Below, piece after piece: positions 20,688 to 61,409 of a stretch of DNA of 61,409 nucleotides. Under the pieces are notes generated by a model. It was not told the origin of the DNA and did no database searches. It saw only the letters and a program-made list of their open reading frames with translations. The translations under genes and the position numbers were made by a program. Position 1 is the first letter of the stretch; every line of letters starts with the position of its first letter. Origin of the DNA: Candidatus Proruminimicrobium quisquiliarum (GTDB taxonomy: Bacteria; Elusimicrobiota; Endomicrobiia; Endomicrobiales; Endomicrobiaceae); NCBI GenBank assembly GCA_018433245.1, contig JAHDRN010000008.1, positions 1-61,409 on the forward strand, given 5' to 3'.

Positions 20688-20755
20688 ATTTTGTTTAATA
20701 ATATTGATGTGTATTGCAAAAGGATTATATTTTTATTTTATAGAGTATAAACATT

Positions 20756-22351: not shown

Positions 22352-22366
22352 TTTTTTATAAAAAAT

Positions 22367-25602: not shown

Positions 25603-26593
25603 GTTTTAATAAAAAACCATTTAACGCTACTTTTTTTGTATTTTTGATTCTGTCCGTATTGTACGCGGCAGGCAATTTTATTTGGTGGACAATCAATACT
25701 CCTGTTATTCCTATGTGGATTTCAGCGGTGCATTTTATTGATATTTTCAGAGAAGGCAATCTGTTTCACAATGCCCCATTACTTACATGGATAATGAAGG
25801 GAATGTTTTTTATATTTGGCAAAGAGTATTATGATTTAATAGTCATCTTCGTTAACTACATATTCTTTTTAATACCGTTATATTTTATATATAAGATAGG
25901 AGTAGAATTAAAAGACAAAGAGACCGGCAATATAGCGATGATATTGTTTGCGCTGGTGCCGGCAGTACGGGCATCAGGATTATCATATAATAGCGGGAAT
26001 AACGTTTAATATATACTGTTTGATAAAGACGGATTATTTCAGAGACAGAAAGTGGACGATATGGTACGGGATATCGGTTGGATTAGGATTAATGATAAAA
26101 GATGCTTTTCTAGCATATTTTTTTGTCCCGTTTTTATACATAGTTATATCGGGTTTAATAGAAAAGACAGATAAGATAAAGATAATAAATATTTTAACGG
26201 CAACAGCGATAGGAAGTTTAATCGCAGGCTGGCATTATTTTAAAATAGATGTTATTAAAAATTTTTTATTTGAACCGACGACTGAAACGACAAGTATATT
26301 TGCTTTTGAAAGTTTAAGGGTAATGACAACCCGATTATGGGAAGACTTGCTTTCTCCCCCGATATTTTTGATTTTTATAATCGGGTTAATATTTTTTATT
26401 TTAAAATATAAAGGCAAATATAAAAATGTAGTTTTATTATGGTTTTTTGTACCGTGGGTAATAATAATGCTGATGTCTCATAATAAACGGCCGGAATATG
26501 GATTGGGTTTTATACCTAGAAAGAAGTAAGGCTGAAGATACAAAAGTGACTTTGTTGGGCAAAAAATATAAATTTTTTCAGTTGTTTGAATAA
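25599..26593 (+). pseudogene. GT39/ArnT-like array copy 5, inactivated by two deletions
   Basis: The N-terminal 117 residues are normal (loop SAVHFIDIF, NAPLLTWIM). At about 25965 the sequence jumps from the first to the second CCGGCAGTA, losing exactly 20 bases that intact copies 1, 2, 4 and 7 have there; the frame then shifts. The rest of the core continues in another frame from about 25965 to 26529. At 26517 a second deletion removes the C-terminal third and leaves a remnant EDTKVTLLG.KYKF tail ending at the stop at 26591-26593. Translation from the original start would end soon after the shift (at 26007-26009), so no full enzyme can be made. Confidence 0.9.
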
Positions 26594-26625
26594 TATATAA
26601 CAGGCAAATAATTTGAGTAAAACTT

Positions 26626-28125
26626 ATGAATTTAAATAAAAAAAGATTTGATAGTACTTACTTCGTATTTTTTGCTATTGCGGTAATATATGCAATAGGT
26701 AATTTTATTTGGTGGCAAATGAATACTCCTATTATTCCAATGCATATTTCAGCACTCCATTTTCTTGATATTTTAAGAGAAGGTTGGTTATTTCGCAATG
26801 CCCCTTTGCTCACTTGGATAATGAGGGGAATGTTCTATATATTCGGCAAAGAGTATTATGATTTGATAGTGATATTTGTTAATTATATATTCTTTTTAAT
26901 TCCGTTATATTTCATATATAAGATAGGAGTAGAATTAAAGGACAAAGAGACCGGCAACATAGCGATGATACTATTTGCACTTGTTCCTGCAATATATGGG
27001 ATGAGTCGTCAGTATGGTCACAAAGATTACCATATAATAGCCGGAATAACTTTTAACATATATTGTTTGATAAAGACGGATTATTTTAAAAATAGAAAGT
27101 GGGCAATATGGTACGGTATTTCAGTAGGATTGGGCTTGATGATAAAGGATTCATTCCTTGCATATTTTTTTATTCCGTTTGCATACATAGTAATAGTTGG
27201 ACTAAAAGAAAAGACCGATAAGACAAAGATAATCAATATTTTAACTGCAATAGCATTAGGTTGTTTAATCGCAGGTTGGCATTATTTTAAAATAGATATT
27301 ATTAAAAAAATTTGGTATGAACCTGTTACAGAAACAGTTCCGGTCTTTATTTTTGATAGTTTAAGGGTAATGACGATAGGCTTGTGGGAAGATTTATTAT
27401 CGCCGCCGATATTTATAATATTTATAATTGGATTAATATTTTTTATTTGGAAATATAGGGGTAAGTATAAATATATAATTTTATTATGGTTTTTTGTTCC
27501 TTGGAGCATAATAATGTTAATGCCTCATCATAAACTACCTGAATACGGTGTAGGATTTATTCCTGCGATTATATTGATAAGTGTAATTTGGATATCAAAT
27601 ATGAAATACAAATATATAAAAAAAATAATATTTTTATTATTGATTGTTGTTGGAATTTTACAATATGTTAATTTTTCTTACGGGATATTAGATTTAAAAT
27701 TATTCAAAATGAGATCAGATTGTAAATATATAAAACCTAGTTTAAAATATTATAACAGAAAAAACTCTTTAATCGTTTGCAATAAAGAAGAGAATCGCAA
27801 TTTTTCAAGTTTTATTAAATATATGAAAGATCAATACTATGATTATAAATTATGTATCATTTATAAAAAAGATTTAGATTATTTTCCTTTAGCAGTTCAA
27901 TTTACTTTAAATAAAATGTCTCACTATTTTAGTGATTTTGATGAGAGCATTTTATTATCCGATATAATTGTAATTTTTGAAAAAAAATTAACAATAGAGC
28001 AAAAAATCGGAAGCATTGAAAATAAATATTATATAATTGACACTTTCTATTTAAATGCTTTTAATTCGGATAGAGTTCTTTTGCTTGGGAGAAAAGATAA
28101 ATTTCCACAGTTTTCGAAATTCTAA
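26626..28125 (+). CDS. GT39/ArnT-like membrane glycosyltransferase, array copy 6
   Basis: This 499-residue paralogue is intact and the shortest full copy, because the C-terminal soluble region is about 30-40 residues shorter. The loop reads SALHFLDIL with NAPLLTWIM. The core is the most diverged in the array at synonymous sites (CCTGCAATATATGGG in place of the usual repeat), so it has escaped recent homogenisation there. It ends VLLLGRKDKFPQFSKF. Confidence 0.8.
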   Translation: MNLNKKRFDSTYFVFFAIAVIYAIGNFIWWQMNTPIIPMHISALHFLDILREGWLFRNAPLLTWIMRGMFYIFGKEYYDLIVIFVNYIFFLIPLYFIYKIGVELKDKETGNIAMILFALVPAIYGMSRQYGHKDYHIIAGITFNIYCLIKTDYFKNRKWAIWYGISVGLGLMIKDSFLAYFFIPFAYIVIVGLKEKTDKTKIINILTAIALGCLIAGWHYFKIDIIKKIWYEPVTETVPVFIFDSLRVMTIGLWEDLLSPPIFIIFIIGLIFFIWKYRGKYKYIILLWFFVPWSIIMLMPHHKLPEYGVGFIPAIILISVIWISNMKYKYIKKIIFLLLIVVGILQYVNFSYGILDLKLFKMRSDCKYIKPSLKYYNRKNSLIVCNKEENRNFSSFIKYMKDQYYDYKLCIIYKKDLDYFPLAVQFTLNKMSHYFSDFDESILLSDIIVIFEKKLTIEQKIGSIENKYYIIDTFYLNAFNSDRVLLLGRKDKFPQFSKF

Positions 28126-28174
28126 AAGGTATGTAATAAAAAATATTATGTTTAAATTTTTAAATTTAAAGATT

Positions 28175-29782
28175 ATGGTATTTAAGAATAAAAAAATTGA
28201 TAATACTGCTATCATATTTCTAACTATCGCAATAATGTATGCAATAGGCAATTTTATTTGGTGGACAATCAATACTCCTGTTATTCCTATGTGGATTTCA
28301 GCGGTGCATTTTATTGATATTTTCAGAGAAGGAAATCTGTTCCACAATGCCCCATTACTTACTTGGGTAATGAGATTGATGTTCTTGACATTTGGGAATG
28401 GAAGTTACGATTTACAGATTATATTCGTAAATTATGTATTTTTTTTAATACCGTTGTATTTTGTATATAAGATAGGAGTAGAATTAAAAGACAAAGAGAC
28501 CGGCAATATAGCGATGATATTGTTTGCGCTGGTGCCGGCAGTATACGGGATGAGCCGGCAGTACGGGCATCAGGATTATCATATAATAGCGGGAATAACG
28601 TTTAATATATACTGTTTGATAAAGACAGATTATTTCAGAGACAGAAAGTGGACGATATGGTACGGGATATCGGTTGGATTAGGATTAATGATAAAAGACG
28701 CGTTTTTGGCGTATTTTTTTGTACCGTTTATTTATATAGTGATAAAGGGATTAAAAGAGAAGACAGATAGAGCAAAAGTAATCAATGTTTGCATGTCTAT
28801 AGTATTAGGAAGTTTAATAGCCGGCTGGCATTATTTCAGACCTGAAATTTTTATGAAGGTCATTCAAGAACCTATCATAGAGCAGCAGCCTGTATTTTCT
28901 TTTGAAAGTTTAAGGGTAATGACAATAGGATTATGGGAAGAGTTATTGTCTCCTCCTATCTTTATATTATTTGTGATAGGATTGGTATTTTTTATTTTCA
29001 AATACAGGGGAAAATATAAAAATGTAGTTTTATTATGGTTTTTTGTGCCTTGGTCAGTAATAACATTTATGCCTCATTACAAAGTTTCAGAATATGGGGC
29101 GGGTTTTATTCCCGCTGTTATTCTTTTTGCATCTTTATTTCTGACAAATATTAAGAGTAAATATACAAAAGCGGTAATAATTACATTTTTAACAGGACTT
29201 CTTTTTTTTCAATATATTGATTTTTCATATGCGCCTTACCACACTTTGCTGGATATAAAATTAAAATATAAAAACTCTTTTATCATGTATTACAATAAAT
29301 TTTATTCAATAATGTTCTATGATATAAGAAAATCTGATTTCACATTAAAACTTATCAAATATTTAAAAAATAATTATCCCAACAATTCAATTTATATTGA
29401 AGAATATTTTATAAGCGATCCTGCTTGCTTAGTGGCACAGATGTATTTAAATAATATTAATTTTAAAAATAGTGAAGGCATATTATCATCTGATATAATT
29501 CTAATTATGAATAAAATGAAAACGACACAGGATATAGTAGAATTTATGATTAAAAAAATTTTAGAAAATCCTTTAAATTCTAAAATAATAACACGAGATT
29601 TTAAAGATGAACTTTCATTAAAAATGAAAAGAATTTTCAAGCTGGTCAATCAGAACTATAATATAATAAAAGAATTTAGTCTTAATGAAATAAATAATGA
29701 AGATACAAAAGTAACATTGCTAGGCAGAAAAGATAAATTTTCTGAATTTAATGAAAAACATGCCATTTTGGATGTAAAATGA
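28175..29782 (+). CDS. GT39/ArnT-like membrane glycosyltransferase, array copy 7
   Basis: This 535-residue paralogue is intact. The frame is open from 28055, overlapping copy 6. I chose the ATG at 28175 because MVFKNKKIDNTA aligns with the starts of the other copies; 28148 is the alternative. The N-terminal loop region is identical in sequence to copy 5 (PVIPMWISAVHFIDIF), the core matches copy 2, and the end SEFNEKHAILDVK matches copy 3. It is therefore the clearest mosaic. The stop overlaps copy 8 by ATGA. Confidence 0.8.
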   Translation: MVFKNKKIDNTAIIFLTIAIMYAIGNFIWWTINTPVIPMWISAVHFIDIFREGNLFHNAPLLTWVMRLMFLTFGNGSYDLQIIFVNYVFFLIPLYFVYKIGVELKDKETGNIAMILFALVPAVYGMSRQYGHQDYHIIAGITFNIYCLIKTDYFRDRKWTIWYGISVGLGLMIKDAFLAYFFVPFIYIVIKGLKEKTDRAKVINVCMSIVLGSLIAGWHYFRPEIFMKVIQEPIIEQQPVFSFESLRVMTIGLWEELLSPPIFILFVIGLVFFIFKYRGKYKNVVLLWFFVPWSVITFMPHYKVSEYGAGFIPAVILFASLFLTNIKSKYTKAVIITFLTGLLFFQYIDFSYAPYHTLLDIKLKYKNSFIMYYNKFYSIMFYDIRKSDFTLKLIKYLKNNYPNNSIYIEEYFISDPACLVAQMYLNNINFKNSEGILSSDIILIMNKMKTTQDIVEFMIKKILENPLNSKIITRDFKDELSLKMKRIFKLVNQNYNIIKEFSLNEINNEDTKVTLLGRKDKFSEFNEKHAILDVK

Positions 29783-46863: not shown

Positions 46864-48396
46864 ATGATTTGGTTCAGAAAAAACAATTTGACAGGTCTTG
46901 TTGCAATAGCGGCAGTTTTAATTTTTACGGTATGTTTTTCAAAAAACACATCGGCGGCGGACACATCAATATATGCAAATTCGTTGTTAACTCCTTTTTT
47001 AAATGCAAAATCGGAACATGTTTATGACAAAATACAAAGGCAAAATAACGGATGTCCGAAAGAACACACTGCTGTTTGGGCTGAATATTATTTTAACAGT
47101 ATTGAATTTGACGCAAGCAACGACTCGGCAGGGTACAAAAATGTAATTAACGGGATTTTGGCAGGTTTTAATATTTTTGAAACTAAATCGTGGACTCTTG
47201 GAATTATGGCAGGATACGGAGATTCAAAACTTGAACAGGAACAAAACAGCACAGAATCCGATAATTTAAATTTTGGTTTATACGGCGGTTATCAAACCGG
47301 AAACTGGCAGATGAAAAGCATGTTTTTCGGAGGTTATGAAAAGTATAAAACAAAAAGAGCCGGCAATGAAAGCGAATATAACGGATACAGCGCATCTTTG
47401 GATTTGGAATTAGGATATAAAATTGCATTAAACGAAACAAAAGATTTCTTTTTAAAACCTTTTGCCGGAGTTTTAGGTTCATATGTCACTATTGAAGAAG
47501 CAAAAGAAGAAGGAGCAGGCGCTCTAACGATAGGGTCTGACAGTTTAACAATGGCACAGGCAAGAGCAGGGTTGGAATTAAACGGACAAATACAGAAATT
47601 TTCTTGGTATGCAAATGCCGGTATTAGACGCATTTTGACTCCTGATAATACGGAAATAGAAGTATTGACTACGGATACAAAATCAAAAAGCGTTGAAATG
47701 GAATCGGATTTATCATTTTCGGGTGCTTTGGGTGTTGACTATCTGCTTACAGAACATTTAACTTTGTTTGCAAACGGACAAACTTGTTATTCCGACAGGA
47801 CTGACGATTCAAGATCTTATTATTTTAATATCGGTGCTTTGTATAAATTTGGCTGTAAAGATTCTAAAACAAATGAAGAGCCTGTTGCTGAAACAATTGC
47901 GGAACCTGAACAGCCTGTTGCTGAAACAAATGCAGAACCTGCGAAGGTTGTTGAGGAAGAAGTTCAAGAAGCGGATAAAACCGAAATTTTAAATGATGAA
48001 CCGGTTGTGGTAAACAAAGAGGAAGCCGACCTGTTAAAATCAAAACAAACGGCAAAAATTAAATTATATGAAATGCCTCAATTTGAAACGAACAGCGATA
48101 AATTGACGCCGAAAAGCAGAGAGATTGTAAAGCAAATAGCCTCGGCTTTGGAACAATATCCCGGCTCTGAAGTTTTGATAGAGGGACATACCGACAGTTT
48201 GGGAGATGAAGCTGCCAATCAAAAACTGTCTGAAAAAAGAGCGCAAAAAATAGCTCAGACATTAAAAGACGAATATAAAGTTTCAAACAGTTTTGCCGTT
48301 ATAGGCAAAGGAGAAACAGAACCGATAGCCGCTAATGACACTAAGGAAAACAGAGCAAAAAACAGAAGAGTTGAAGTGATTGTTATAAGCAAATAA
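46864..48396 (+). CDS. Outer-membrane beta-barrel fused to an OmpA peptidoglycan-binding domain
   Basis: This is a 510-residue protein. A signal peptide (about 1-32, ending TSAA) precedes an autotransporter-like beta-barrel (about 60-335) of alternating aromatic strands (SMFFGGYEKYKT, YYFNIGALYKF). A Pro/Glu-rich linker (EPVAETIAEPEQPVAETNAE) follows, then an OmpA C-terminal domain (about 400-510). The OmpA signature LIEGHTDSLGDEAANQKLSE and NRRVEVIVI are clear. It likely ties the outer membrane to peptidoglycan. In true autotransporters the barrel is C-terminal and a passenger is N-terminal; here there is no passenger. The start follows GTGAGGAG. Confidence 0.88.
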   Translation: MIWFRKNNLTGLVAIAAVLIFTVCFSKNTSAADTSIYANSLLTPFLNAKSEHVYDKIQRQNNGCPKEHTAVWAEYYFNSIEFDASNDSAGYKNVINGILAGFNIFETKSWTLGIMAGYGDSKLEQEQNSTESDNLNFGLYGGYQTGNWQMKSMFFGGYEKYKTKRAGNESEYNGYSASLDLELGYKIALNETKDFFLKPFAGVLGSYVTIEEAKEEGAGALTIGSDSLTMAQARAGLELNGQIQKFSWYANAGIRRILTPDNTEIEVLTTDTKSKSVEMESDLSFSGALGVDYLLTEHLTLFANGQTCYSDRTDDSRSYYFNIGALYKFGCKDSKTNEEPVAETIAEPEQPVAETNAEPAKVVEEEVQEADKTEILNDEPVVVNKEEADLLKSKQTAKIKLYEMPQFETNSDKLTPKSREIVKQIASALEQYPGSEVLIEGHTDSLGDEAANQKLSEKRAQKIAQTLKDEYKVSNSFAVIGKGETEPIAANDTKENRAKNRRVEVIVISK

Positions 48397-49425: not shown

Positions 49426-51063
49426 ATGAAAAATATGATTGTTTTGGTATTATCTCTTGTGTTAACGACAGGTAACGCAGGGGCATCTTTTTTAGAAGCG
49501 CCTTCTCCGTATACGTTCGGCCCAGAAGGCAGGACTGTTGCCGATTTGAGAAATTTTGCAACGCCTAAAATGATGGTTAATATACTTCCAAACAGACCGG
49601 TTGTCGCAACAGATTCTTCAGGCAACAGGTTATATTATACTCCCGACGGTAAAATGTCATTAAGCATATCAAAAGACGGTTCAATGAGTTTTTCATTGGG
49701 CGGGACGACAAAAAGTATTGACGCCGAAGGTAATTTAACAAGCATAAGCACCAAAATTTCAGGAACCGATATCGCTGAAGTCAAAAATGAATTCGGAGAA
49801 CTTTTAGGATACAGACAATACAATGCCTCGGGATCTGTTTCAAAAGAATACGACAATCAGGGAAATCTTACAAGAACTTACAATTACGACAAATACGGCA
49901 AAACATTGAGTTATATTACCGATGAAATGTCAAAAACAAAAACAACATACGACGAATTTGGCAGAGAAGTCGCCGTTTATGACGCGGACGGATATATATT
50001 ATCGGCATGCCAGTATCAGGATATAAGCTACGAAAGAGGCGAAGACGGAAAAACTTTAACGGTAATCCAGAAAGACAAAACAGGCAGCCACGGTCTTTTA
50101 GTTTCCAGAGAAAATTACCAGTACAAAAGAGACAGCCTTGATTCTCCTCTTGAACTTGTTCATACTACGACTTTTTTTGATGAAAAAGGTTCTGCTACCA
50201 TTACGAAAGATGCAGATGGTTTTGTTATTTCAAGATTTGTGTATAAACAGGATTCAAACGGCAATCAGGTTTTGTCTGAGATAATAAATCCCAGAACCGG
50301 CGAAGTAACTCATTATACGAACGGCAAAGAAGATAAAACGGTGAACGCCGAAGGCACCGTTATAAAACAATGTTTTTGGAACGGCTCAAAACTTATGTTT
50401 TCCGTTACTTTGGGAGAAGACGGCAAATGGTCTACCATAACCAGAGATACTTACACGGAAGACGCAAAAAACAACGTTTATGACGCAACAGGAAATATTT
50501 TAGAATCAAGAGATCAGGACGGCAATCTTTTGGAAACATATGTTTACAGAGAAGGAGAAACAAATCCTGACGGAACAAAAGTTATCGCTTATGTTAAAAA
50601 TGAGCAGGACGGTTCAATAACTTATTACGATGAATTGGGAAGGCAGACTTATACAAAAGATGCAAACGGCGAAACAATAAAAGAATACAACTGGAACGGC
50701 AATACTCTTGTTTTTGTTTTTAACAATACAACACAAACAACGACCTGGTATAACCAGAGCAAAGAAGACGTATATACTACATTTAACGACAGAATAATAA
50801 CAAAAAATATTTATAGTAACGGGCAGTTAATAGGCGTATGGGATGCTACCACAAACAAGCTGACTGTTATGAAAAATCAGACGCAGTGGATAGTCCTTGA
50901 AAGTTACGGGTCTGAACCTTCTGCTGCTGAAATTGTAAAAATTTTATCTTTTTCAAGTCTTATTGAGAAGAGATATGCCGAGGGAACAGAAGGCGATATG
51001 TCGGATCTTGATTTAAATGCGATGTTAGAGGAGTATTTAAATTCGCAAAGTTCGGGGAATTAA
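49426..51063 (+). CDS. Secreted YD-repeat-like protein
   Basis: This 545-residue protein has a Sec signal peptide (LVLSLVLTTGNAGA). The mature part consists of loosely repeated YD/Rhs-like strands: YDNQGNLTRTYNYDKYG, YDEFGREVAVYDADGY, YDATGNILESRDQDGN, YYDELGRQTYTKDANGE. Known YD repeats form extended beta shells in Rhs and teneurin proteins, often wrapping or displaying a cargo. This one has no RHS core box and no toxin-like tail, so it is not a classical Rhs toxin. The ribosome-binding site GGGAGGAGG is unusually strong. It lies 12 bases before the small membrane protein and shares a likely transcript with the second giant. Confidence 0.8.
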   Translation: MKNMIVLVLSLVLTTGNAGASFLEAPSPYTFGPEGRTVADLRNFATPKMMVNILPNRPVVATDSSGNRLYYTPDGKMSLSISKDGSMSFSLGGTTKSIDAEGNLTSISTKISGTDIAEVKNEFGELLGYRQYNASGSVSKEYDNQGNLTRTYNYDKYGKTLSYITDEMSKTKTTYDEFGREVAVYDADGYILSACQYQDISYERGEDGKTLTVIQKDKTGSHGLLVSRENYQYKRDSLDSPLELVHTTTFFDEKGSATITKDADGFVISRFVYKQDSNGNQVLSEIINPRTGEVTHYTNGKEDKTVNAEGTVIKQCFWNGSKLMFSVTLGEDGKWSTITRDTYTEDAKNNVYDATGNILESRDQDGNLLETYVYREGETNPDGTKVIAYVKNEQDGSITYYDELGRQTYTKDANGETIKEYNWNGNTLVFVFNNTTQTTTWYNQSKEDVYTTFNDRIITKNIYSNGQLIGVWDATTNKLTVMKNQTQWIVLESYGSEPSAAEIVKILSFSSLIEKRYAEGTEGDMSDLDLNAMLEEYLNSQSSGN

Positions 51064-51075
51064 AGCAGGAGAGTT

Positions 51076-51678
51076 ATGGACAGATTAACAGTAAACTTTT
51101 CAAAAAGTACTGTGAAATTATTGCACAAGGTTATTGCTTGTGCGGTTCTGTTTTGTATTATAGCAGGTTCGGCTGAATCCGTAACTTTTACAAATATTAA
51201 TTTAACGTTCACCGATTCAATGAGAGTATCGGCCGATACTTTGTTATCTCAATTTTTTTCCGTATCAACATTGCCGGTAAATGCCATATCAAAGATGTTT
51301 ATTGAAACAGTAAATAAAACTAATGTTGCAAAGGATTCTTCTTCACAAAAACATAAAGATAAAAAAGCTAAAGAAGGAAGCAGCGCAAGGGCATCAGCAG
51401 GGTATTCTATAATACCAAACAATATAATAAATTCTCTTAATTTTGTTAATAAAATCAGGTATTTGAATGTATCTGATAATTTTGTAAGCGTTACCTATCA
51501 TAAATTGCTTAATTACAGAATTTTAGAAAGAGATAAAGTGCGATGTCTGGATATGTTTATAAAATTTAATATAATGTTGTTATTACTATATATATTACTT
51601 ACAAGACGTAATATAAGCAGCGATGACAATATTATAAATACAATAAATAAAAATAATATGATAGCTCGGCTTGTATAA
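51076..51678 (+). CDS. Small membrane protein of the giant-protein cassette
   Basis: This is a 200-residue protein. One hydrophobic segment lies at about 15-33 (LLHKVIACAVLFCIIAGSA) and a second near 150-175 (FIKFNIMLLLLYILL), with a Ser/Lys-rich external stretch (SSQKHKDKKAKEGSSARA) between. I know no family match. The start follows CAGGAGAG. Its stop codon lies in the loop of the first of two hairpins that separate it from the giant gene. Its position suggests a partner or anchor for the flanking secreted and giant proteins. Confidence 0.65.
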   Translation: MDRLTVNFSKSTVKLLHKVIACAVLFCIIAGSAESVTFTNINLTFTDSMRVSADTLLSQFFSVSTLPVNAISKMFIETVNKTNVAKDSSSQKHKDKKAKEGSSARASAGYSIIPNNIINSLNFVNKIRYLNVSDNFVSVTYHKLLNYRILERDKVRCLDMFIKFNIMLLLLYILLTRRNISSDDNIINTINKNNMIARLV

Positions 51679-51722: not shown

Positions 51723-54700
51723 ATGAATATATTTAAAAATCTTTTAAAGGAAATAACAAAAGAAAAAATTTCTCTTGTTTATTCTCAGGCAAGAGAATTG
51801 ATTCTTTCCATGACATTTATGAAAATTACGGCGATAGTCGTAGTTAACTGTTTCCTTTTAACATCCGTGTACGGACAGGCCGTTGCTTCCGTTATGGATA
51901 ATAACAGGGCAACTGCTCAATTTAAACAGATTTTTCAGGATTTTGAACTCCCGTACAGTTACGGTAAAATCACAACCGCAGATTACAGAGGCAGTGACAA
52001 AGTGGTTGTTAATATTCAGGATCTGCACAGCCATCCGGAAGTTCAAAGAAATATCAGCAGAATTATTGACCTTTTTGATTCAAAATACGGCGTTAAAAAT
52101 ATTTATCTTGAAGGCGCTTACGGACAGGTAAGCACAAAATGGCTTACCGATGCCAAAGAAGAAAACGTAAGAAACGCTATAATGGATAAGCTTATAGATA
52201 CAGGCCGTTTAACCGGTGCCGAGTATTATTCGGCATTAAAAAATAAAACAGAGATTATAAAAGGACTTGAAAATAAAGAACAATATTTTGACAATTTAAA
52301 AAGATTCGGAACTCTTTTAGATAATCAGAACAATATAAATTTCTTATTGGATGAGATTCAAAAAACCGTAAAGACATTACAAAATAATTATTACAACAGG
52401 CAGCAGAAGAAGATTGAAGAATTATCGGCAAGTTATGTTTCCGGAAATACCGACCCGAAGAAATATTTTGTATTAATGGCAAAGCATGCCGAAAAGCTGG
52501 GTGTTGACATAAATAATTATGAAAATCTTGCATTGTATATGCGTTTGATGGAGAGCCAGAAAAATATTGATTATACGAGAACAACGCAGGAATTGCAGAT
52601 GTTTGTCATTAAATTAAAAGAAGTTCTTCCGTATAATGCGTATAAAATGCTGGTTGATTCAACGCAGAATTTTCAGCAGATGGATAAACTTTACGGATAT
52701 ATCATAAAACTTTCAAGACAATATAACTTAAATCTTTCTGTTAATTTTCCGGAATTGGAAAAGTTTTTTGCTTATATGGAATTAAGTCAGAAAATAAATC
52801 CTCTGCAGCTGATAAAAGAAGAACAGAATTTTAAAGATGAAATTAACGATAAATTTGCGGCAAACAAAGCCGAAGAAGAAGTTGTATTTATAAGCAATTT
52901 TATTAAATATTACAGAGACTACCTTACAAGCAAGATAACTTCCGACGACTGCAAGTATTATCAGGCTAATATTGATAAATTTAAATATTTATGGGTTAAA
53001 TATATTGATGACAAACAGATTGTAGCAATGGCTGAATATGAGGAAATATCAGACAAATTTTATGCTATTAACTTAGCCAGAAACAACTACTTTTTGGCAA
53101 ATATTGACGGCATTGCAAATACAAATAAACTTACCGTAAATGTCACAGGAACAAGCGAACTTGAAAAAGTAATGTCCTCTCTGAAAGACGCAAAAGAAAT
53201 ATACATAGTTATTACCGGCGGTTTTCATACGCAGGGAGTATCTGATTTGCTGGCTCAGAAAAATATAACAAATATTGTAATTACACCTAACGTAACCGGT
53301 GATACTAAAGCGGCGGAAGAAACTTATTACAAAATAGCGCAGGAACAAAGCAAGATTAGTTTTCAGGCTTTGGCGACGCTTCCCATGACGTTATTAAATC
53401 CGAAGATAACAGATATAGTATCTCTCGGGAACAATAAATTTTCTTTTACCGTAACTGATGATGCCGATAAATACGTCGGTGAAATGACAATAGAAGGGAA
53501 CAAAGGAATAATAACAAGTTTTGAAAAAGTAGCCGATAGCGGAAAAACTGAATCGCGTACCGAATCACAGCAAAAATCAGTTGATTCAGTTAAAAAATCT
53601 TTAAGAGCCGCAACGGGATTATCGGCGTTTTTTGCTATTGCAACTTTAGTTACGCTTCCTATACTTATATTCACAGGGACTTTACCTATTGTTATTGTTG
53701 TTACAGGATTGCTTACTACTACAAGTTCATTAGCATTTCTTGGGATAAAAAGAAATCTTACCGACCAGCAGAAAGTATTGCTTGAAGCGCAGCAGCAAGC
53801 GGCTGAAAATCAGGCAATTATGTCCGATGCTGCTGACAAAAGAGAATTGTTAAAGACTGTTTTAAATTCGGTATCTGAGAAAACAAGAAACAGCATCCTT
53901 AAAGTTTTGGGTTTATCAAGTATGGAGGGTATAGACGGCTTGGATGAAACCGGAATCAATAATATTTTTTCACTTAAAGGAGAAGGAGAACTTTTTGAAG
54001 TTTTAAAAGAAGAAAAAAAGATTGTAATGAATCCTTTTCTGCTGAAAGCTTTTTTGGATTATGATAAAAATATCAAAAATCAATATTTGCTTGAAACTTT
54101 TTTGCTGCACGAATTGAGACATATAAACCATAAATGGATGCCTGAATTTATGGTAGGGTTTGGAGATTTGGGCAGTTATTTTGCGTCCGTGTGGATGAGT
54201 TTGAAAAATGAAAAAACGCGTGAAAAAATAAAAATATTTATACAGAAAATATTTAATAAAGACGCTCTTAGTAAACAGGAAAGACTTGAGTACGGAAAAA
54301 CTTTGGAATGGGCGACTCAGGTTCTCGGCGCAGATTATGTTGAAATGTTCCAAAACAGACAGGAACGTATATATAAGAAAGGTGCCGGCACAAGCAATAA
54401 AACGACAAGACAGATAATAAGCGCAGCTGTGATGGTTAAAAACGGCATTGTTGAACTCGGTACGGGAGCAGGAAAATCAGACGCTTTCAAATTGGCTGTT
54501 GTCAAATTGCTTGCCGAAGGCAAAGATATTTTGTTTTTGACTAATACGGCGGATTTGGCAAAAAGAGATATTGAAGCGATGTTCCGCTTTGTATATGACA
54601 ATGAAGAGGAAATGATCAAACTCGGAGTTATAAAAACAGATGCCCAAACAAAAAAGCCTTTGCCTCTTCAGTTCGGTTTTGTGCATGAATCCGATGACTC

Positions 54701-57700
54701 TAAAAACGTGCTTTACAGCTGGGATTCAAAAAATAAAACTGTTATAACTGAAAATACGACTAAAAAAGACGTTTACAGACGGGCAAGAGTCGTTGCCGGT
54801 TCGTCAATGTCAGCTTTTGTATGGGACAGACAAAAAGATTTGAAAGCAAATGCCGATGAAAAAACAATAACGCAGAAAAAGTGGAGACTTCTTATAGATG
54901 AAATCCACAGACCTTTGATACAAGGCGCAAACGATACGTTTACAATTTCCGAAGGCAACAGAGATAATTTTATAGAAAGCGCGCTGTTCCAGAGATTAGC
55001 CGGCGATGTTGCCGGAATATTGGACGGCAGTTATTATACTATAGAGGGAAGAAAAGTCAAAATAAATACAAGTAAAAAAGCGGAAATAGTTTCCAAATTC
55101 CGTAAACTTTTGCCAAATAGCGCTTTAAGTGACGATGAAATTTTAGCGTTTGTTGAAAATGCGCTTATTGCTATGTATGTATATAAACCCGGAAGAGATT
55201 ATTTAATTTCAGTAACTCATATAGCTGAAAAGCCCGATTCAAAATTTATAAAAATAGTTCTTCTTGACCAGACTACTATGGAAACAAGAGAAAGCGTAAA
55301 AATGAGCAATAATCTGCATTTGGCTGTTGAATTCATTGTTCAGAGAGAAATTGCCGCGTCAAAAAAAGAATTTTTGCCTTATAAAGGCCATCAGATAATA
55401 TGGTCATTTGAAACAAAACAAGATTTATCTATGACAGTAAATGCATTCCTTGAAGATAAAGAAGTTATAGAAGGATATGCCGGCGCGACGGGAACGATAG
55501 ATGCCTATGCGGTACACTCTCTTTACGGCAAAGACGTCATATCTTTAGGTTCAGAAGGCGGTTCTAAACCGGTAATGATTGCTCAGTTTTTAACCGAAAA
55601 TAGAGAAAAACAGCTTGAAAAAGTATTTGAAACGGTAAATAAAATTGATGCTATAGACGGTAAACCCGAGGATACAAAAACAGTCACGTTTATAAGAGTT
55701 TCAAATCCTGCGGAAGCTTTGGTACAGAAAGAAAATTTGGAAAAATTACTGCCGCAGGCAAGAACCGAAAATAAAATATATGTCATAACAGATCCTGACA
55801 ATCTGCCTGTTATTCCGGGTAAAGACAAAAAACCTGCAACAATAGAGGAAGCTTTGGAAATATTAACCGCTATTCCGGGAATGATTATAATAGGAACAAA
55901 TCTTATAGCAACCGGTATAGACCCCAAACCTCAAGGAACGGTAGAAAGACTGGTCAGCATAAATACGGTATTTGACAGAGATCAGTCAATATGGAATCAG
56001 TTTAAAGCAAGAATCGGAAGAAGCGGAACAAAAGGTTTTTTCATAGATATATTGAATTTAAGTGAAATAGACCGTGAAGAAATGACGGAAGAAGATTTGG
56101 CTATTCTTAAATCTAAAATATCACAAAAACATAGTATCGTAACGGACTCTCAGGAACAACAGCAAAGAACGGAACAACTGGTATACGGAATTGAAAACGT
56201 ATCGGATGCGGAAAAAGGGTTTATCTCTTCTTTCATGTCGGACTATTCAAACATATTTAACGATGCCGCCGTGGAAAACGGTGAAATAAAATCTTACGGA
56301 AAATCACAGTCTATAATTGACAGTATCGTACAGATAAGAGACAGTTTCACGAACAGCGAATTGTCAGGCATTATGCAGATACAAAGATACGGTAAAGATT
56401 ACTGGAATGTAATAAAACAGTATGCCGATTCAAGAAAAGCGTATGATTCGGATCAGTGGATTATAACATTATTCGGAATGACCAGAGAAGAATTCAAAAA
56501 AGCACATGAAGGCATTACAGATGAAGATATAGAAAATTTGAGATTGAAAATGGTTGGAAGTTTTGATAAGGAATGGAGCGATTTGGCCGTTGCTTTGTCT
56601 GATGCGAATTACAATTTAGGCAATGTTTTTAAAAATGAAATTTTCCAAAGTTTTTTACAATTTGCCGAACTTGACCAGGAAACCGAAAAAGTCGCTTTAT
56701 TGGCCAAAGTAACCGACAATTTTGCGGTAAAAGCGCAGTTGGCGGCGTATGAGCAAGCCAAAGGTGAAAAATTCAAAGATATAGAAATAACGCTTACTCA
56801 AAAACAGACTGCGAAAAATATATCCAAAACAGCAAATAAAGTGATTGGTAATGTTTTAAAATATTCAATTATGCTTGTAAAAGGTCTTATAATAGGTTTT
56901 GCAGGCGTGGCATTGATGAAAATATTTACCGGCGCTGTAGTTATAGGTATTTCTTTTACGCCCGCGGCTCTTGTAATAGCCGCCATAGTATTCTTCATAG
57001 TATTATTTAATTTTGCGATAAAACCTCTTATTAATAAAATAAATTCCGAATTACAGAGAAACGGTTTAAATTCTGCTTTGGGTAAATATGCCGGAACAGG
57101 CGATTCAAAATACAGAAGAGACGCTTTTAAATCTTATTTGAATAAACTTTTATCTTCCGTAATACAAATTTCTTCAATTACGGCGTTAGGCATTCTTATT
57201 ATGGCAATAGCTTTTGGAACGCCGACTCTTATTGTGACTGCGTTAATAAGCGCCGTTGTGTCTGTTATCACCGCAATTGTTTTTATCGTTTCAAACAGAA
57301 GTATCGTTCCTAATTTACAAACAGTTAAAAATATAAAAACCACGTCAAGTTCGCAGCAGTCAAAGACCTCGGCTGTTACTACAGGCTTTATGATCGGTAT
57401 TATAGGACTTATTTCGTTTATATTTCTGCCGGCTGTTTTCCCGGCGGTCAGCTTGCTTATTTCGGCCGTTTTGGCGGTTGCAGGTATGGGTTCATTCATC
57501 GCGGCAAAATATGTATTGCCTAAAAAATTATTTAATGAAAGAGAATCCGCTTCAAGAAAAACATTTTTTACTTATGCAGGTATTACTCTCGGATGCATTC
57601 TGCCTGCCTTTATATTGGTAAAACTTGGAATAATAACTTTGCCTATAATAGGAGTTGCATTAAGTTCTCTATTTCCGTTAATGCTGATATTGGGCGTTGT

Positions 57701-60700
57701 CGGGGTTTCTTTTTATATGTATAAAATGAAATACATAAATAAACCGGTTAAAAATATAACAAAAACAAACAAAGTAGTAAATTTTTTAAAGATATTTTCG
57801 CCTCTCGCCGCGGTAAGCGTTGCGATACTTTTTTCTGTAATCAAAGGAGCGGCATTAATAACGGCAGTAACTTCCATGATATCACCCGTCGGGTTAATGA
57901 TAGGAGTCGCTCTTGCAGTTGTCTTCATTGCCTTATTATATTTTGAAAAAACAAGACCTGTGGCTAAATTATTATTATCCGTTATAGGATTTGCCACTCC
58001 GTTAGCCGGTTCTGCGGGGCAGGTGGAGCGTGTAAAAACAACGCAGGATTATATTGAATTAAACCAACTTTTAGCGGAAATTCAGACAAATGCAAGTATA
58101 ACTGAACAGCAGAAAACAAGACTGGAAGAATTATTGAATCTATCTGCAATGCCTTTGACTGACAGAAAAAATTTATTTGATTTTATCAAAAACGGCGGCG
58201 ATATATTTAACTGCGCAAGCGATGCTGTTTCAAAAGTGTTAAAAACAAGTTTTTCAGGCTCAGTATCAGGCGCTCTGTATTTGACTGATGCTATAGCCAA
58301 AAATCTTTTTATGACGGATGAAAATATTTATACAAGTATGCAGGCCATTAAAGACATTTTGGAACAAAAAACGAATAAAACTTATAACGGATATAATGTA
58401 ACTATAACGGGAATGTTGGAAGCTTTATCAAAACCGGGAGATCAGGTTATAGCGCTTGTTCAGGGCGGCGCTGTTTTAAATAACGGCGAAGACCATTATA
58501 TATATCTTGAAGTAACTGCCGCCGGAACTATATCTATAAGCGACGGCTATAATGTAAATGAAGTTTCAAAAGAAGGATTGGAAGAATATCTTAAAAACAC
58601 ATATAACGGTTGGTCGGAAGGTTCAATTTTAACTTCCAAAAATATAACTAACGGACGAGCTTTAAGTAAAGAAGAAATGTTTGCTGAAAAAGGCGCTGAA
58701 GGAGAAACACCGGCAACGGAAGAAGCGGCAGATCAGGCAGCAGCCGAGCAAGCAGCGGCCGAGAAAGCAGCAGCCGAACAAGCGGCAGAAGAAGCAAGGA
58801 TAGCAGAAGAAGCAAGAGTAGCAGAAGAAGCAAGAGTAGCAGAAGAAGCAAGAGTAGCAGAAGAAGCAAGAGTAGCAGAAGAAGCAAGAGTAGCAGAAGA
58901 AGCAAGAGTAGCAGAAGAAGCAAGAGTAGCAGAAGAAGCAAGGATAGCAGAAGAAGCAAGGATAGCAGAAGAAGCAAGGATAGCAGAAGAAGCAAGAGTA
59001 GCAGAAGAAGCAAGGATAGCAGAAGAAGCAAGGATAGCAGAAGAGGCAAGGATAGCAGAAGAGGCAAGGATAGCAGAAGAAGCAAGAGTAGCCGAGCAAG
59101 CAGCGGCCGAACAAGCGGCGGCAGATCAAGCAGCGGCAGCAACTCCTACTCCTACAGAAGTAGCTATAGAGACAGTAATAGATGTAGTGGCTCCTGTTGA
59201 TGCTATTGCTGATATTGCAGTAGAATTAACGGAAGAAGAGTCAGCGCCAGCACCAGTAGTAGAAACACCGGTAGTAGAAACGCCGGAACCGGTTGAGGAA
59301 ACACCGGTGGTAGAAACGCCGGCAGAACAAACGCCGGAACCGGTTGAGGAAACACCGGTGGTAGAAACGCCGGCAGAACAAACGCCGGAACCGGTTGAGG
59401 AAACACCAGTGGTAGAAACACCGGCCGAAGAAACTCCTACTCCCACGGAAGTAGCAGTAGAAACAGTAGAAGCTACAGTAACTCCAGTTGCTACTATTAC
59501 CGATGTTGCAGTAACTTTAGCGCCTGAAGAAGATCCTTTAGCGTCTGCGAAAGAATCGGCCAAAGGAACGATAGACGGACTTGGTAATTTAAGTTCAGAC
59601 CAGAAGAACGGATATAAATCAAGCATAGACGGAGCGACAAGCCAGTCTGAAATAGACGGTATAGTATCTTCGGCTATTCAAGCAAATAATGACGCAGCCG
59701 CAGCGGAAGAAGCGGCACAGCTTGAAAATGCAAAAACTGCCGCCAAAGCGACGATAGACGGACTTGGTAATTTAAGTTCGGACCAGAAGAGCGGGTATAA
59801 ATCAAGAATAGACGGCGCTGCAAGCCAGTCTGAAATAGACGGCATAGTATCTGAAGCGGTTCAGGCTGATAATGAAGCTGCCGCATCCCAGCTTGCGTCT
59901 GCGAAAGAATCAGCAAAAGGAACTATAGACGGGCTTAATTTAACGACTGACCAGAAGAACGAATATAAGACAAGAATAGATGCTGCTGCAAGCCAGTCTG
60001 AAATAGACGGCGTAGTATCTGAAGCTACACAGGCAAGCACGGCTAATGATCTTGAAAATGCAAAAACTGCCGCAAAAACCGTAATAGACGGACTTAATTT
60101 AACGACTGACCAAAAGAACGAATATAAGACAAGAATAGATGCTGCTGCAAGCCAGTCTGAAATAGACGGCATAGTATCTGAAGCTACACAGGCAAGCACG
60201 GCTAATGATCTTGAAACTGCAAAAACTGCCGCAAAAACCGTAATAGACGGGCTTAATTTAACGACTGACCAGAAGAACGAATATAAGACAAGAATAGATG
60301 CTGCTGCAAGCCAGTCTGAAATAGACGGCATAGTATCTGAAGCTACACAGGCAAGCACGGCTAATGATCTTGAAAATGCAAAAACTGCCGCAAAAACCGT
60401 AATAGACGGGCTTAATTTAACGACTGACCAGAAGAACGAATATAAGACAAGAATAGATGCTGCTGCAAGCCAGTCTGAAATAGATTCTATATTGTCGGAA
60501 GCTAATCAAACACAATTAGCTGCGGCAAAAGAAACGGCGAAAACAACGATAGACGGACTGACATATTTAACTCAGGAACAAAAAGATAATTACAAGATTT
60601 TGATAGACGCGGCAATAAGTCAGACTGAAATAGATGCTATTATAGCTGATGCGCAAGAAAAAAATATTCCTCCGTTTACAAGAAGCATAGATGCGGTTCT

Positions 60701-61409
60701 AAATGCATTGGGAATAGTCTTGCCGCCAGGTTTTTCACTGCCAACTTCATTAACGGAAAGTATTTTAGCTCAGGAAATATTACCGGGCGACACTTTTGAT
60801 ACATGGATAGCAAGATTAATTTCATCAGGTTTTAAAGCTCAAATACAAGCTGAAATTGATGCATATAGTATACAGGAAGAAATAGCAGTGTATGTACAAT
60901 TAATAAATGACAAATTGGCGCAATATTCTTCTTTAAGCGATGCGCAAAAGTATCAAGCAAAGTTAGAGATGAGAGGATGGATAGAGAAATTAAAAGAATT
61001 AGGAGCAGATGCATCAGTAATAGCAGGTTTGGAAGGGCAAATAGACGCATTGGGAGCAACGCAGGTCGAGATAGATGAAGAAATAGCAGTGTATGTACAA
61101 TTAATAAATGACAAATTGGCGCAATATTCTTCTTTAAGCGATGCGCAAAAGTATCAAGCAAAGTTAGAGATGAGAGGATGGATAGAGAAATTAAAAGAAT
61201 TAGGAGCAGATGCGTCAGTAATAGCAGGTTTGGAAGGGCAAATAGACGCATTGGGACTAACGCAGGTCGAGATAGATGAGGCAATAGCAACAAGAGTACA
61301 GTTGATAAATGACAAATTAGCGCAATATCCTTCTTTAAGCGATGCAGATAAATTTTTGGCAAAACAGATGATGTGGGGATGGCTGCAGGAATTGAAAGAT
61401 TTCGGAGCA
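51723..61409 (+). CDS. Giant SecA-like/metallopeptidase/C39-like multidomain surface protein (3' partial)
   Basis: Open from the ATG at 51723 (after GGGGGTAAA) to the window end: 3229 codons with no stop. Order: membrane or signal segment (about 35-58); TraB/ChaN-like domain (DLHSHPE at 100, GGFHTQG at 499); two membrane segments (about 635-678); zinc motif HELRH at 796. The SecA-like core has ELGTGAGKS at 911, DEIH at 1059, GATGT at 1254, GTNLIATGID at 1391 and QFKARIGRSG at 1426. A polytopic membrane block follows (about 1710-2100). A C39-like domain has Cys2164, His2258 and Asp2274. Then come charged-helix, Pro/Glu, three-helix-type and 67-residue repeats. Seen: motifs and order. Known: SecA, C39 and HExxH activities. 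Inferred: a giant envelope protein combining ATP-driven translocation and proteolysis. Confidence 0.8.
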   Translation, partial: MNIFKNLLKEITKEKISLVYSQARELILSMTFMKITAIVVVNCFLLTSVYGQAVASVMDNNRATAQFKQIFQDFELPYSYGKITTADYRGSDKVVVNIQDLHSHPEVQRNISRIIDLFDSKYGVKNIYLEGAYGQVSTKWLTDAKEENVRNAIMDKLIDTGRLTGAEYYSALKNKTEIIKGLENKEQYFDNLKRFGTLLDNQNNINFLLDEIQKTVKTLQNNYYNRQQKKIEELSASYVSGNTDPKKYFVLMAKHAEKLGVDINNYENLALYMRLMESQKNIDYTRTTQELQMFVIKLKEVLPYNAYKMLVDSTQNFQQMDKLYGYIIKLSRQYNLNLSVNFPELEKFFAYMELSQKINPLQLIKEEQNFKDEINDKFAANKAEEEVVFISNFIKYYRDYLTSKITSDDCKYYQANIDKFKYLWVKYIDDKQIVAMAEYEEISDKFYAINLARNNYFLANIDGIANTNKLTVNVTGTSELEKVMSSLKDAKEIYIVITGGFHTQGVSDLLAQKNITNIVITPNVTGDTKAAEETYYKIAQEQSKISFQALATLPMTLLNPKITDIVSLGNNKFSFTVTDDADKYVGEMTIEGNKGIITSFEKVADSGKTESRTESQQKSVDSVKKSLRAATGLSAFFAIATLVTLPILIFTGTLPIVIVVTGLLTTTSSLAFLGIKRNLTDQQKVLLEAQQQAAENQAIMSDAADKRELLKTVLNSVSEKTRNSILKVLGLSSMEGIDGLDETGINNIFSLKGEGELFEVLKEEKKIVMNPFLLKAFLDYDKNIKNQYLLETFLLHELRHINHKWMPEFMVGFGDLGSYFASVWMSLKNEKTREKIKIFIQKIFNKDALSKQERLEYGKTLEWATQVLGADYVEMFQNRQERIYKKGAGTSNKTTRQIISAAVMVKNGIVELGTGAGKSDAFKLAVVKLLAEGKDILFLTNTADLAKRDIEAMFRFVYDNEEEMIKLGVIKTDAQTKKPLPLQFGFVHESDDSKNVLYSWDSKNKTVITENTTKKDVYRRARVVAGSSMSAFVWDRQKDLKANADEKTITQKKWRLLIDEIHRPLIQGANDTFTISEGNRDNFIESALFQRLAGDVAGILDGSYYTIEGRKVKINTSKKAEIVSKFRKLLPNSALSDDEILAFVENALIAMYVYKPGRDYLISVTHIAEKPDSKFIKIVLLDQTTMETRESVKMSNNLHLAVEFIVQREIAASKKEFLPYKGHQIIWSFETKQDLSMTVNAFLEDKEVIEGYAGATGTIDAYAVHSLYGKDVISLGSEGGSKPVMIAQFLTENREKQLEKVFETVNKIDAIDGKPEDTKTVTFIRVSNPAEALVQKENLEKLLPQARTENKIYVITDPDNLPVIPGKDKKPATIEEALEILTAIPGMIIIGTNLIATGIDPKPQGTVERLVSINTVFDRDQSIWNQFKARIGRSGTKGFFIDILNLSEIDREEMTEEDLAILKSKISQKHSIVTDSQEQQQRTEQLVYGIENVSDAEKGFISSFMSDYSNIFNDAAVENGEIKSYGKSQSIIDSIVQIRDSFTNSELSGIMQIQRYGKDYWNVIKQYADSRKAYDSDQWIITLFGMTREEFKKAHEGITDEDIENLRLKMVGSFDKEWSDLAVALSDANYNLGNVFKNEIFQSFLQFAELDQETEKVALLAKVTDNFAVKAQLAAYEQAKGEKFKDIEITLTQKQTAKNISKTANKVIGNVLKYSIMLVKGLIIGFAGVALMKIFTGAVVIGISFTPAALVIAAIVFFIVLFNFAIKPLINKINSELQRNGLNSALGKYAGTGDSKYRRDAFKSYLNKLLSSVIQISSITALGILIMAIAFGTPTLIVTALISAVVSVITAIVFIVSNRSIVPNLQTVKNIKTTSSSQQSKTSAVTTGFMIGIIGLISFIFLPAVFPAVSLLISAVLAVAGMGSFIAAKYVLPKKLFNERESASRKTFFTYAGITLGCILPAFILVKLGIITLPIIGVALSSLFPLMLILGVVGVSFYMYKMKYINKPVKNITKTNKVVNFLKIFSPLAAVSVAILFSVIKGAALITAVTSMISPVGLMIGVALAVVFIALLYFEKTRPVAKLLLSVIGFATPLAGSAGQVERVKTTQDYIELNQLLAEIQTNASITEQQKTRLEELLNLSAMPLTDRKNLFDFIKNGGDIFNCASDAVSKVLKTSFSGSVSGALYLTDAIAKNLFMTDENIYTSMQAIKDILEQKTNKTYNGYNVTITGMLEALSKPGDQVIALVQGGAVLNNGEDHYIYLEVTAAGTISISDGYNVNEVSKEGLEEYLKNTYNGWSEGSILTSKNITNGRALSKEEMFAEKGAEGETPATEEAADQAAAEQAAAEKAAAEQAAEEARIAEEARVAEEARVAEEARVAEEARVAEEARVAEEARVAEEARVAEEARIAEEARIAEEARIAEEARVAEEARIAEEARIAEEARIAEEARIAEEARVAEQAAAEQAAADQAAAATPTPTEVAIETVIDVVAPVDAIADIAVELTEEESAPAPVVETPVVETPEPVEETPVVETPAEQTPEPVEETPVVETPAEQTPEPVEETPVVETPAEETPTPTEVAVETVEATVTPVATITDVAVTLAPEEDPLASAKESAKGTIDGLGNLSSDQKNGYKSSIDGATSQSEIDGIVSSAIQANNDAAAAEEAAQLENAKTAAKATIDGLGNLSSDQKSGYKSRIDGAASQSEIDGIVSEAVQADNEAAASQLASAKESAKGTIDGLNLTTDQKNEYKTRIDAAASQSEIDGVVSEATQASTANDLENAKTAAKTVIDGLNLTTDQKNEYKTRIDAAASQSEIDGIVSEATQASTANDLETAKTAAKTVIDGLNLTTDQKNEYKTRIDAAASQSEIDGIVSEATQASTANDLENAKTAAKTVIDGLNLTTDQKNEYKTRIDAAASQSEIDSILSEANQTQLAAAKETAKTTIDGLTYLTQEQKDNYKILIDAAISQTEIDAIIADAQEKNIPPFTRSIDAVLNALGIVLPPGFSLPTSLTESILAQEILPGDTFDTWIARLISSGFKAQIQAEIDAYSIQEEIAVYVQLINDKLAQYSSLSDAQKYQAKLEMRGWIEKLKELGADASVIAGLEGQIDALGATQVEIDEEIAVYVQLINDKLAQYSSLSDAQKYQAKLEMRGWIEKLKELGADASVIAGLEGQIDALGLTQVEIDEAIATRVQLINDKLAQYPSLSDADKFLAKQMMWGWLQELKDFGA
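58785..59090 (+). repeat. 18-bp tandem repeats (17 copies)
   Basis: Seventeen in-frame units of GCAGAAGAAGCAAGAGTA or the A-to-G/ATA variants encode AEEARV or AEEARI. The product is a roughly 100-residue charged segment expected to form a long single helix. Slippage within the array would keep frame because the unit is a multiple of three. Confidence 0.95.
59280..59432 (+). repeat. 51-bp tandem repeats (three copies)
   Basis: Three units starting at 59280, 59331 and 59382 encode TPEPVEETPVVETPAEQ, an extended Pro/Glu-rich linker. The third has minor changes. Confidence 0.92.
59538..60664 (+). repeat. Seven GA/FIVAR-like three-helix modules
   Basis: Modules start at 59538, 59721, 59892, 60051, 60210, 60369 and 60516. 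Each has the pattern LxxAKxxAKxxIDGL...QK..YK..ID.A.SQ.EID. Modules 3-6 are spaced exactly 159 bp and are nearly identical. The pattern recalls GA/FIVAR modules of large Gram-positive surface proteins, though the assignment is by eye. Confidence 0.75.
60876..61409 (+). repeat. 201-bp tandem repeats running off the window
   Basis: Units begin at 60876, 61077 and 61278 (period 201 bp, 67 residues). The first two are nearly base-identical. They encode a helical unit beginning EEIAVYVQLINDKLAQYSSL, with GWIEKLKELGADASVIAGLE later in the unit. The array continues past the window end. Confidence 0.93.

Follow-up and report, generated by a model that had tools for sequence, protein, structure and literature searches.

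The window analysed here is the whole stretch of 61,409 nucleotides (nt) of contig JAHDRN010000008.1 (assembly GCA_018433245.1) of Candidatus Proruminimicrobium quisquiliarum; it represents the complete contig C34 of a 1.94 Mb genome assembled in 35 contigs. Its end is occupied by a giant open reading frame (ORF), in which a module with the SecA fold follows a HExxH motif and precedes a block of hydrophobic hairpins and a long repetitive tail, and which is paired with an upstream gene for a 200-amino acid (aa) membrane protein. The features identified are reported in Table 1; residue numbers of the giant ORF are counted from the ATG at 51723.

Table 1. Features of the giant ORF and of the genes directly upstream. 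NBD, nucleotide-binding domain; TM, transmembrane helices.
Feature	Position	Strand	Description
Giant ORF	51723..61409	+	3,229 aa from ATG; single frame without stops, running past the contig end
Extended signal peptide	51723..51887	+	basic n-region of about 30 aa, then MKITAIVVVNCFLLTSVYGQA
N-terminal module (N-module), about 520 aa	51864..53408	+	QDLH ... EG ... GAEYY ... NxxRNxxF ... GGFHT; common to other giant ORFs
Hydrophobic hairpin ahead of the peptidase motif	53601..53750	+	hydrophobic segments
HExxH region	53970..54302	+	LLETFLLHELRH ... PEFMVGFGD; HELRH at 54108-54122 (residue 796)
SecA-fold module	54354..56657	+	NBD1, cross-linking domain, NBD2, long scaffold-like helices
P-loop GTGAGKS	54459..54479	+	residues 913-919
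Walker B DEIH	54897..54908	+	residues 1059-1062
SNNLHLAVE	55305..55331	+	counterpart of SecA SDGLHQAVE
Motif VI QFKARIGRSG (arginine finger)	55998..56027	+	residues 1426-1435
Membrane block	56841..58025	+	five hairpins (10 TM), K/R-rich linkers, terminal signal-like segment; residues ~1707-2101
C39-like Cys/His/Asp region	58185..58622	+	FNCASDAV ... EDHYIYL ... ISDGYN; Cys 2164 first
Low-complexity/repeat tail	58677..61409	+	EA-rich, PE-rich, about seven GA modules, 67-aa tandem repeats
200-aa membrane protein, conserved partner gene	51076..51678	+	hydrophobic N- and C-terminal segments, LTRRN/LPRG end
Secreted RHS/YD-repeat protein	49426..51063	+	homologue upstream of the giant/200-aa pair also in genomes G068 and G098

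The frame stays open up to the final base of the contig, so that the protein is at least 3,229 aa long and its C terminus is absent from the window. The original prediction, that a SecA-like ATPase, a HExxH motif, a membrane block and a C39-like peptidase are joined in one chain, is confirmed as to the chain itself, since a single open frame from 51723 contains all the landmarks. They are arranged as signal peptide, N-module of about 520 aa, hairpin, HExxH, SecA-like ATPase, ten transmembrane helices, C39-like triad and GA-module stalk. An assembly chimera, which had been considered as a possible artefact, is excluded, because the identical domain order is repeated in about 28 independently assembled genomes.

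The SecA-fold module

In its usual form, SecA is a soluble protein that works with SecY. The single sequence of the giant ORF passes the cut-off for Pfam SecA_DEAD (PF07517, E = 6.2e-7). A profile built from six relatives matched solved SecA at 3.9e-24, in pieces spanning NBD1, the cross-linking domain and NBD2, and a 16-member profile reached 1.6e-26 in one continuous alignment. The comparison by hhalign with the genome's own SecA, of 878 aa, gave 99.1% over 456 columns.

The motifs GTGAGKS, DEIH, GATGT (residues 1254-1258) and QFKARIGRSG follow each other in the SecA order. Within the SNNLHLAVE-type motif, a junction which precedes NBD2, the residues S, N, L, H and E are invariant across the six-member set. 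In the 16 members, mostly about 20% identical, the DE of Walker B, the Thr and Gly of motif V and the Q-R-R of motif VI are invariant, the NBD2 columns being T517 and G523 for motif V and Q551, R555 and R558 for motif VI; the Gly-Lys of the P-loop is at least 90% conserved.

An AlphaFold model of residues 876-2075 was obtained with pLDDT 75 and pTM 0.73, the membrane part being less certain. When this model was compared with the PDB by using Foldseek, the top 34 matches were all SecA (best E 1.8e-19), and the best superposition was found with the SecY-engaged SecA 5eul (TM-score 0.61 by target length, 6.4 Å over 760 columns). Most of SecA is aligned by Foldseek, and the long helices predicted after NBD2 lie at the position of the SecA helical scaffold. 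The stretch from these helices to the membrane block does not offer enough room for a full wing domain, and the region is therefore named a SecA-fold module and not a complete SecA.

On the grounds of sequence comparison and of the predicted fold, the case for assigning the motor to the SecA family is strong, in agreement with the original prediction; profile searches and the AlphaFold model point to SecA and not to an unrelated helicase family. The housekeeping SecA (the separate 878-aa ORF) and SecY are both present in the genome, and the SecA-like giant is thus an additional system. It is a membrane-embedded chain, and not a soluble SecYEG partner of about 900 aa.

One subclade (G001, G009, G013, G021:C144, G025 and G029) has a P-loop of the GMGKGKQ type or similar, in which Thr/Ser is mostly lost. 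Its Walker B is DEAD/DEVD-like, strikingly close to SecA's own DEVDSILIDEARTPLIISG, and near-canonical sequences such as DEVDSALIQGGMTPLIISG are found.

A second giant ORF occupies positions 1-11454 (+) of the window; it is 3,817+ aa long, open at the 5' end and provided with 5' tandem repeats. A weak SecA-like stretch was observed at residues ~1860-2300 (EVGFGKT, LADEIHKF, GMSGTLSHVNILSDVYGM). The matches to SecA_PP_bind (0.0015), to the genome's own SecA by BLASTP (2.5e-4) and by hhalign (16%) are suggestive only of a second SecA-like module.

Peptidase-like regions, membrane block and tail

The HExxH motif, correctly predicted, is found about 60-200 aa ahead of the motor in nearly all members having that region. 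It is retained in most members, including the GMGKGKQ subclade, and is at least as conserved as the P-loop; a conserved acidic stretch, LEEL.VS.GD, lies downstream. A Pfam search of the region gave no peptidase-family match.

As for the C39-like peptidase, the Cys/His/Asp set is present as predicted, while the peptidase identity is not supported beyond the motif. The Peptidase C39 profile PF03412 gave zero matches genome-wide at E<=10, with the positive controls detected, and zero for the segment itself; a PDB search of the region produced no supporting match. Furthermore, Cys and His are lost in the close relatives G030 and G026, and His in G021:C150. The Cys and His motif is found in the window, in G036 and in L010, another giant locus of the same genome; the NCA...HY/HF unit lies at about residue 2499 of G036:C126 and at about residue 699 of L010, which has no SecA module. 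The motif seems to be a mobile unit of the giant family, because other giants carry it, one of them lacking the SecA module.

The membrane block, also correctly predicted as a polytopic region, consists of five hydrophobic hairpins and a terminal segment. The hairpins are of about 45-95 residues each, with uncharged turns and K/R-rich linkers between them, and in many members an extra signal-like segment follows the fifth. In those members whose sequence extends far enough, the five-hairpin block is found after the motor. The first hairpin of the protein appears as two crossings. Two candidate relatives of the block were rejected: the type III translocator AopB, which was detected at 1.5e-4 with a long profile and was lost with a membrane-only profile, and was hence taken as chance, and TrbL/VirB6, found at 0.003 in one member only.

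Residues ~2320-3229 are made up of EA-rich, PE-rich, GA-module and 67-aa repeat tracts. The GA modules, a repeat type of albumin-binding surface proteins, are identified by their match to Pfam PF01468 (E 9.3e-54, seven stretches). NCBIfam matches to LpxD/LpxA/NeuD (residues 2340-2480) sit on the EA-rich low-complexity tract and were considered compositional; the single sequence also matched SUMO (E ~0.6), which was attributed to chance.

A PADLOC search for membership of the locus in a defence system gave zero matches, and no related viral or plasmid loci were found when a viral or plasmid origin was considered. The scaffold, the membrane block, the N-module and the partner gene gave no match, each in its searched subset of Pfam, PHROGs, NCBIfam, PADLOC and PDB.

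Relatives, partner gene and distribution

The signal-peptide motif of the giant ORF recurs in all relatives having an N terminus. The N-module begins nine loci in the genome, the SecA-like giant and eight others (L010-L017). Many further loci in the order begin with it; it is found in 50 of the 96 genomes of the class, with at least 15 copies in many, and is missing from the single-contig genome G010. Behind it, the other giants carry PPDK_N and a low-molecular-weight (LMW) phosphatase (L012), HD (L010) or HExxH (L011, L014 and L017). L012 (2464-16926, -) is an ORF of 4,821 aa with a signal peptide, in which PPDK ATP-binding and phosphoenolpyruvate-utiliser domains are recognised (6.5e-96); these are enzymes needing cytosolic substrates, yet they are placed behind a signal peptide. 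The N-module itself had no match in Pfam, in a PDB profile search or in Foldseek (nothing below 0.25, the EreA-like 3b55 being at 0.86), and resembles EreA/ChaN/TIKI-like enzymes by motif alone.

Upstream sequence is available for 14 loci, and in 13 of them the 200-aa gene immediately precedes the SecA-like giant. The window's genome has a single copy of this gene, adjoining the SecA-like giant, against nine N-module loci. A class-wide search with this gene led to giants which the SecA profile had initially overlooked or only just detected (G001, G009, G011, G025, G029 and others); these proved to hold diverged SecA-like and membrane blocks. Weaker relatives of the gene precede N-module giants in which a SecA module is not detectable (G035, G037:C1, G039 and G064).

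The uniform class-wide search, in which matches outside ORFs of canonical SecA length were counted, identified the SecA-like giant in 27 genomes; with G004, recovered by profile search, they correspond to about 28 of the 84 genomes of the order examined. All SecA-like giants fall within one order; the search found none in any other family of the class. Across 295 genomes sampled from the whole phylum, the rest of the matches listed were mostly ORFs of canonical SecA length. Open frames of the family reach 9,048, 10,563 and 11,689 aa. A scan of named genomes, performed with a four-sequence alignment of the SecA-like core, found three loci, all in metagenome-assembled genomes (MAGs) of Endomicrobium/Endomicrobia, one of them Candidatus Endomicrobium neocapritermitis. 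This places the window's genome in the Endomicrobia lineage of Elusimicrobiota, the phylum suggested by the original prediction. It is almost certain, from these results, that the giant belongs to a family of giant Endomicrobia proteins which extends over the order and has a fixed scaffold and a variable, often huge, C-terminal tail.

Within the family, which includes free-living commensals of the gut as well as endosymbionts, the genus Endomicrobiellum (PMC11257099, where SecA, giant genes and effectors are not mentioned), the SecA-like giant occurs in 23 of the 35 genomes outside genus g7 and in 2 of the 42 within it (Fisher p 9e-9, with no phylogeny correction). Judged by its size and its number of genomes, this large, small-genome genus probably corresponds to Endomicrobiellum. 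Two broken remnants were observed in it, one of the membrane block, with a stop (G095:C16:27311-27790), and one of the N-module, with five stops (G063:C20:17138-18676); they fit decay in a genus with reduced genomes.

Elsewhere in the window, a gene at 46864-48396 (+), separated from the giant by a few genes on its upstream side, encodes an outer-membrane protein in which a beta-barrel of the autotransporter type is joined to an OmpA domain. Positions 19122-29782 (+) hold an array of six membrane glycosyltransferases of the PMT_2 type (dolichyl-phosphate-mannose mannosyltransferase-like), each about 500-575 aa long, in a stretch whose G+C content, mostly 26-31%, is below that of the rest of the window.

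Comparison with known systems and possible functions

The giant shares with SecA and SecA2 (PF07517, PF01043) the order of NBD1, cross-linking domain and NBD2, SDGLHQAVE-like and AGMTGT-like motifs, and motifs V and VI. It differs in being a SecA-like module fused, at about 20% identity, into a membrane protein bearing a signal peptide; besides the shortage of room for the wing domain, the C-terminal zinc-binding tail of SecA is not seen, and SecY is not fused. FtsH, too, contains membrane segments, an ATPase and HExxH within one chain; in contrast, its motor is an AAA+ ring, while here a SecA fold is found, with HExxH ahead of the motor, and sequence and size are different.

Other likenesses are drawn from published descriptions. 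Wolbachia wBol1 has long genes with secA domains, of 4,488 and 11,829 nt, with insect and protist relatives (PMC3639933). As described, they combine a SecA-like domain within a very large symbiont protein with a separate housekeeping SecA; an N-module, a HExxH motif or a hairpin block is not mentioned for these proteins in the part of that article which deals with them. In Amoebophilus, helicase-related domains of a SecA-like kind occur in polymorphic effectors, which are believed to sit, within the host, anchored to the surface of the symbiont (PMC3482391). Here the likeness, again by description, is in a conserved exported N-terminal domain, lineage-expanded, followed by varied enzymatic domains including SecA-like ones, whereas the N-terminal domains are APD1/APD2 with a lipobox, ubiquitin-system domains are present and, in the relevant part of the article, a giant multi-hairpin form is not described. 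The giant ORFs of Omnitrophota and Elusimicrobiota (PMC10066038) are similarly very long membrane or surface proteins with repeats and transmembrane helices; in the portion of the article concerning them they are described as poorly conserved, with few annotated domains and no mention of a SecA domain, whereas the present scaffold is conserved order-wide. The kind of protein is thus already known, because SecA-like domains in large symbiont proteins and giant ORFs in these phyla are on record, and the original statement that no such protein had been described holds in the portions of these sources considered for the architecture, and not for the SecA-like domain of Amoebophilus and Wolbachia.

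With regard to activity, substrate and membrane side, the best supported of the readings considered is that the giant may be a machine derived from SecA and anchored in the membrane, which would thread polypeptides and be coupled to a HExxH zinc-peptidase-like region; it is advanced tentatively, as somewhat short of probable. The hairpins would tether the SecA-fold clamp and motor to the membrane; clamp and motor would grip polypeptides and thread them by using ATP, like SecA and SecA2, and the adjoining HExxH region would act upon the threaded chain. The whole would amount to a membrane translocase and protease driven by SecA, serving to export or mature a dedicated substrate, most plausibly surface giants of the N-module family or the protein's own exported tail. 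The 200-aa protein could serve as membrane partner of the machine, and the GA-module and repeat tail as its surface-exposed end. It is unlikely that the single polypeptide goes further and constitutes a whole secretion and processing machine, with SecA-type motor, non-SecY membrane module, metalloprotease and giant passenger, which would export or mature the N-module giants together with the 200-aa partner.

Several observations weigh against the threading machine. The signal peptide and the even number of crossings predict that the motor lies outside, where ATP is missing; the positive-inside rule and the surface-type tail argue for the opposite placement, with the motor inside. This topology conflict is the chief weakness of every mechanism proposed. 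The identification of the ten-helix block with SecY was rejected (hhalign 0.3%), and the block had no match in Pfam or PDB, nor was a known channel relative found. In G038, the N-module and the motor follow each other with no hydrophobic segment in between; G038 and G004 are without HExxH, and in G032:C234 the motif is missing or altered. In addition, the GMGKGKQ-like P-loop implies that ATP hydrolysis may differ in the subclade which carries it.

The conflict between ATP and topology would be resolved if the giant were a delivered or surface-exposed effector, exported by its signal peptide, with the motor working in the cytosol of a contacted cell (a gut protist or another microbe) and the hairpins in the membrane of that cell. 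All family members carry a signal peptide, the other N-module giants hold cytosol-type enzymes (PPDK_N, LMW phosphatase, HD), and Amoebophilus (PMC3482391) and Wolbachia (PMC3639933), as far as their proteins are described in those articles, offer precedents. The distribution of the giant, commonest outside the small-genome genus g7, speaks against such a role, as does the broken remnant in G095, a member of g7; moreover, some of the named carriers are MAGs which, to judge by their names, come from higher termites, hosts without flagellates (PMC11257099). An effector, the main rival of the threading machine, is, on balance, somewhat unlikely.

A role closer to housekeeping, as an FtsH-like membrane-tethered ATP-dependent protease for envelope quality control, with a SecA-type motor instead of an AAA+ ring, is suggested by the hairpin-rich membrane block and by a HExxH motif that adjoins the motor and is conserved at least as well as the P-loop. 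It appears quite improbable for a protein which has a surface-like, hugely variable tail, is itself absent from most of the order genomes examined and contains a HExxH region without peptidase-family support in Pfam. The persistence of fold and HExxH in the subclade with an altered P-loop, on the other hand, would agree with an exapted architecture, in which polypeptide movement has been lost and the SecA fold is a large element of a giant adhesin, used for structure or for binding; the GA-module/repeat stalk points the same way, and giant ORFs of related phyla are interpreted as adhesins in the pertinent part of PMC10066038. Against this, 16 members, the window's giant among them, have kept the catalytic residues of Walker B and of the arginine finger unchanged in spite of their strong divergence, which makes loss of the activity a rather doubtful explanation.

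The presence of SecA clamp and motor in a giant HExxH membrane protein suggests that SecA-type threading may serve another use. For the giant genes of Elusimicrobiota and Omnitrophota, in which few domains are recognised, one class is now provided with a fixed scaffold, a partner gene and catalytic residues that can be mutated. As the SecA-like giant is nearly absent from genus g7, its role would seem to belong to a life led outside the flagellate host.
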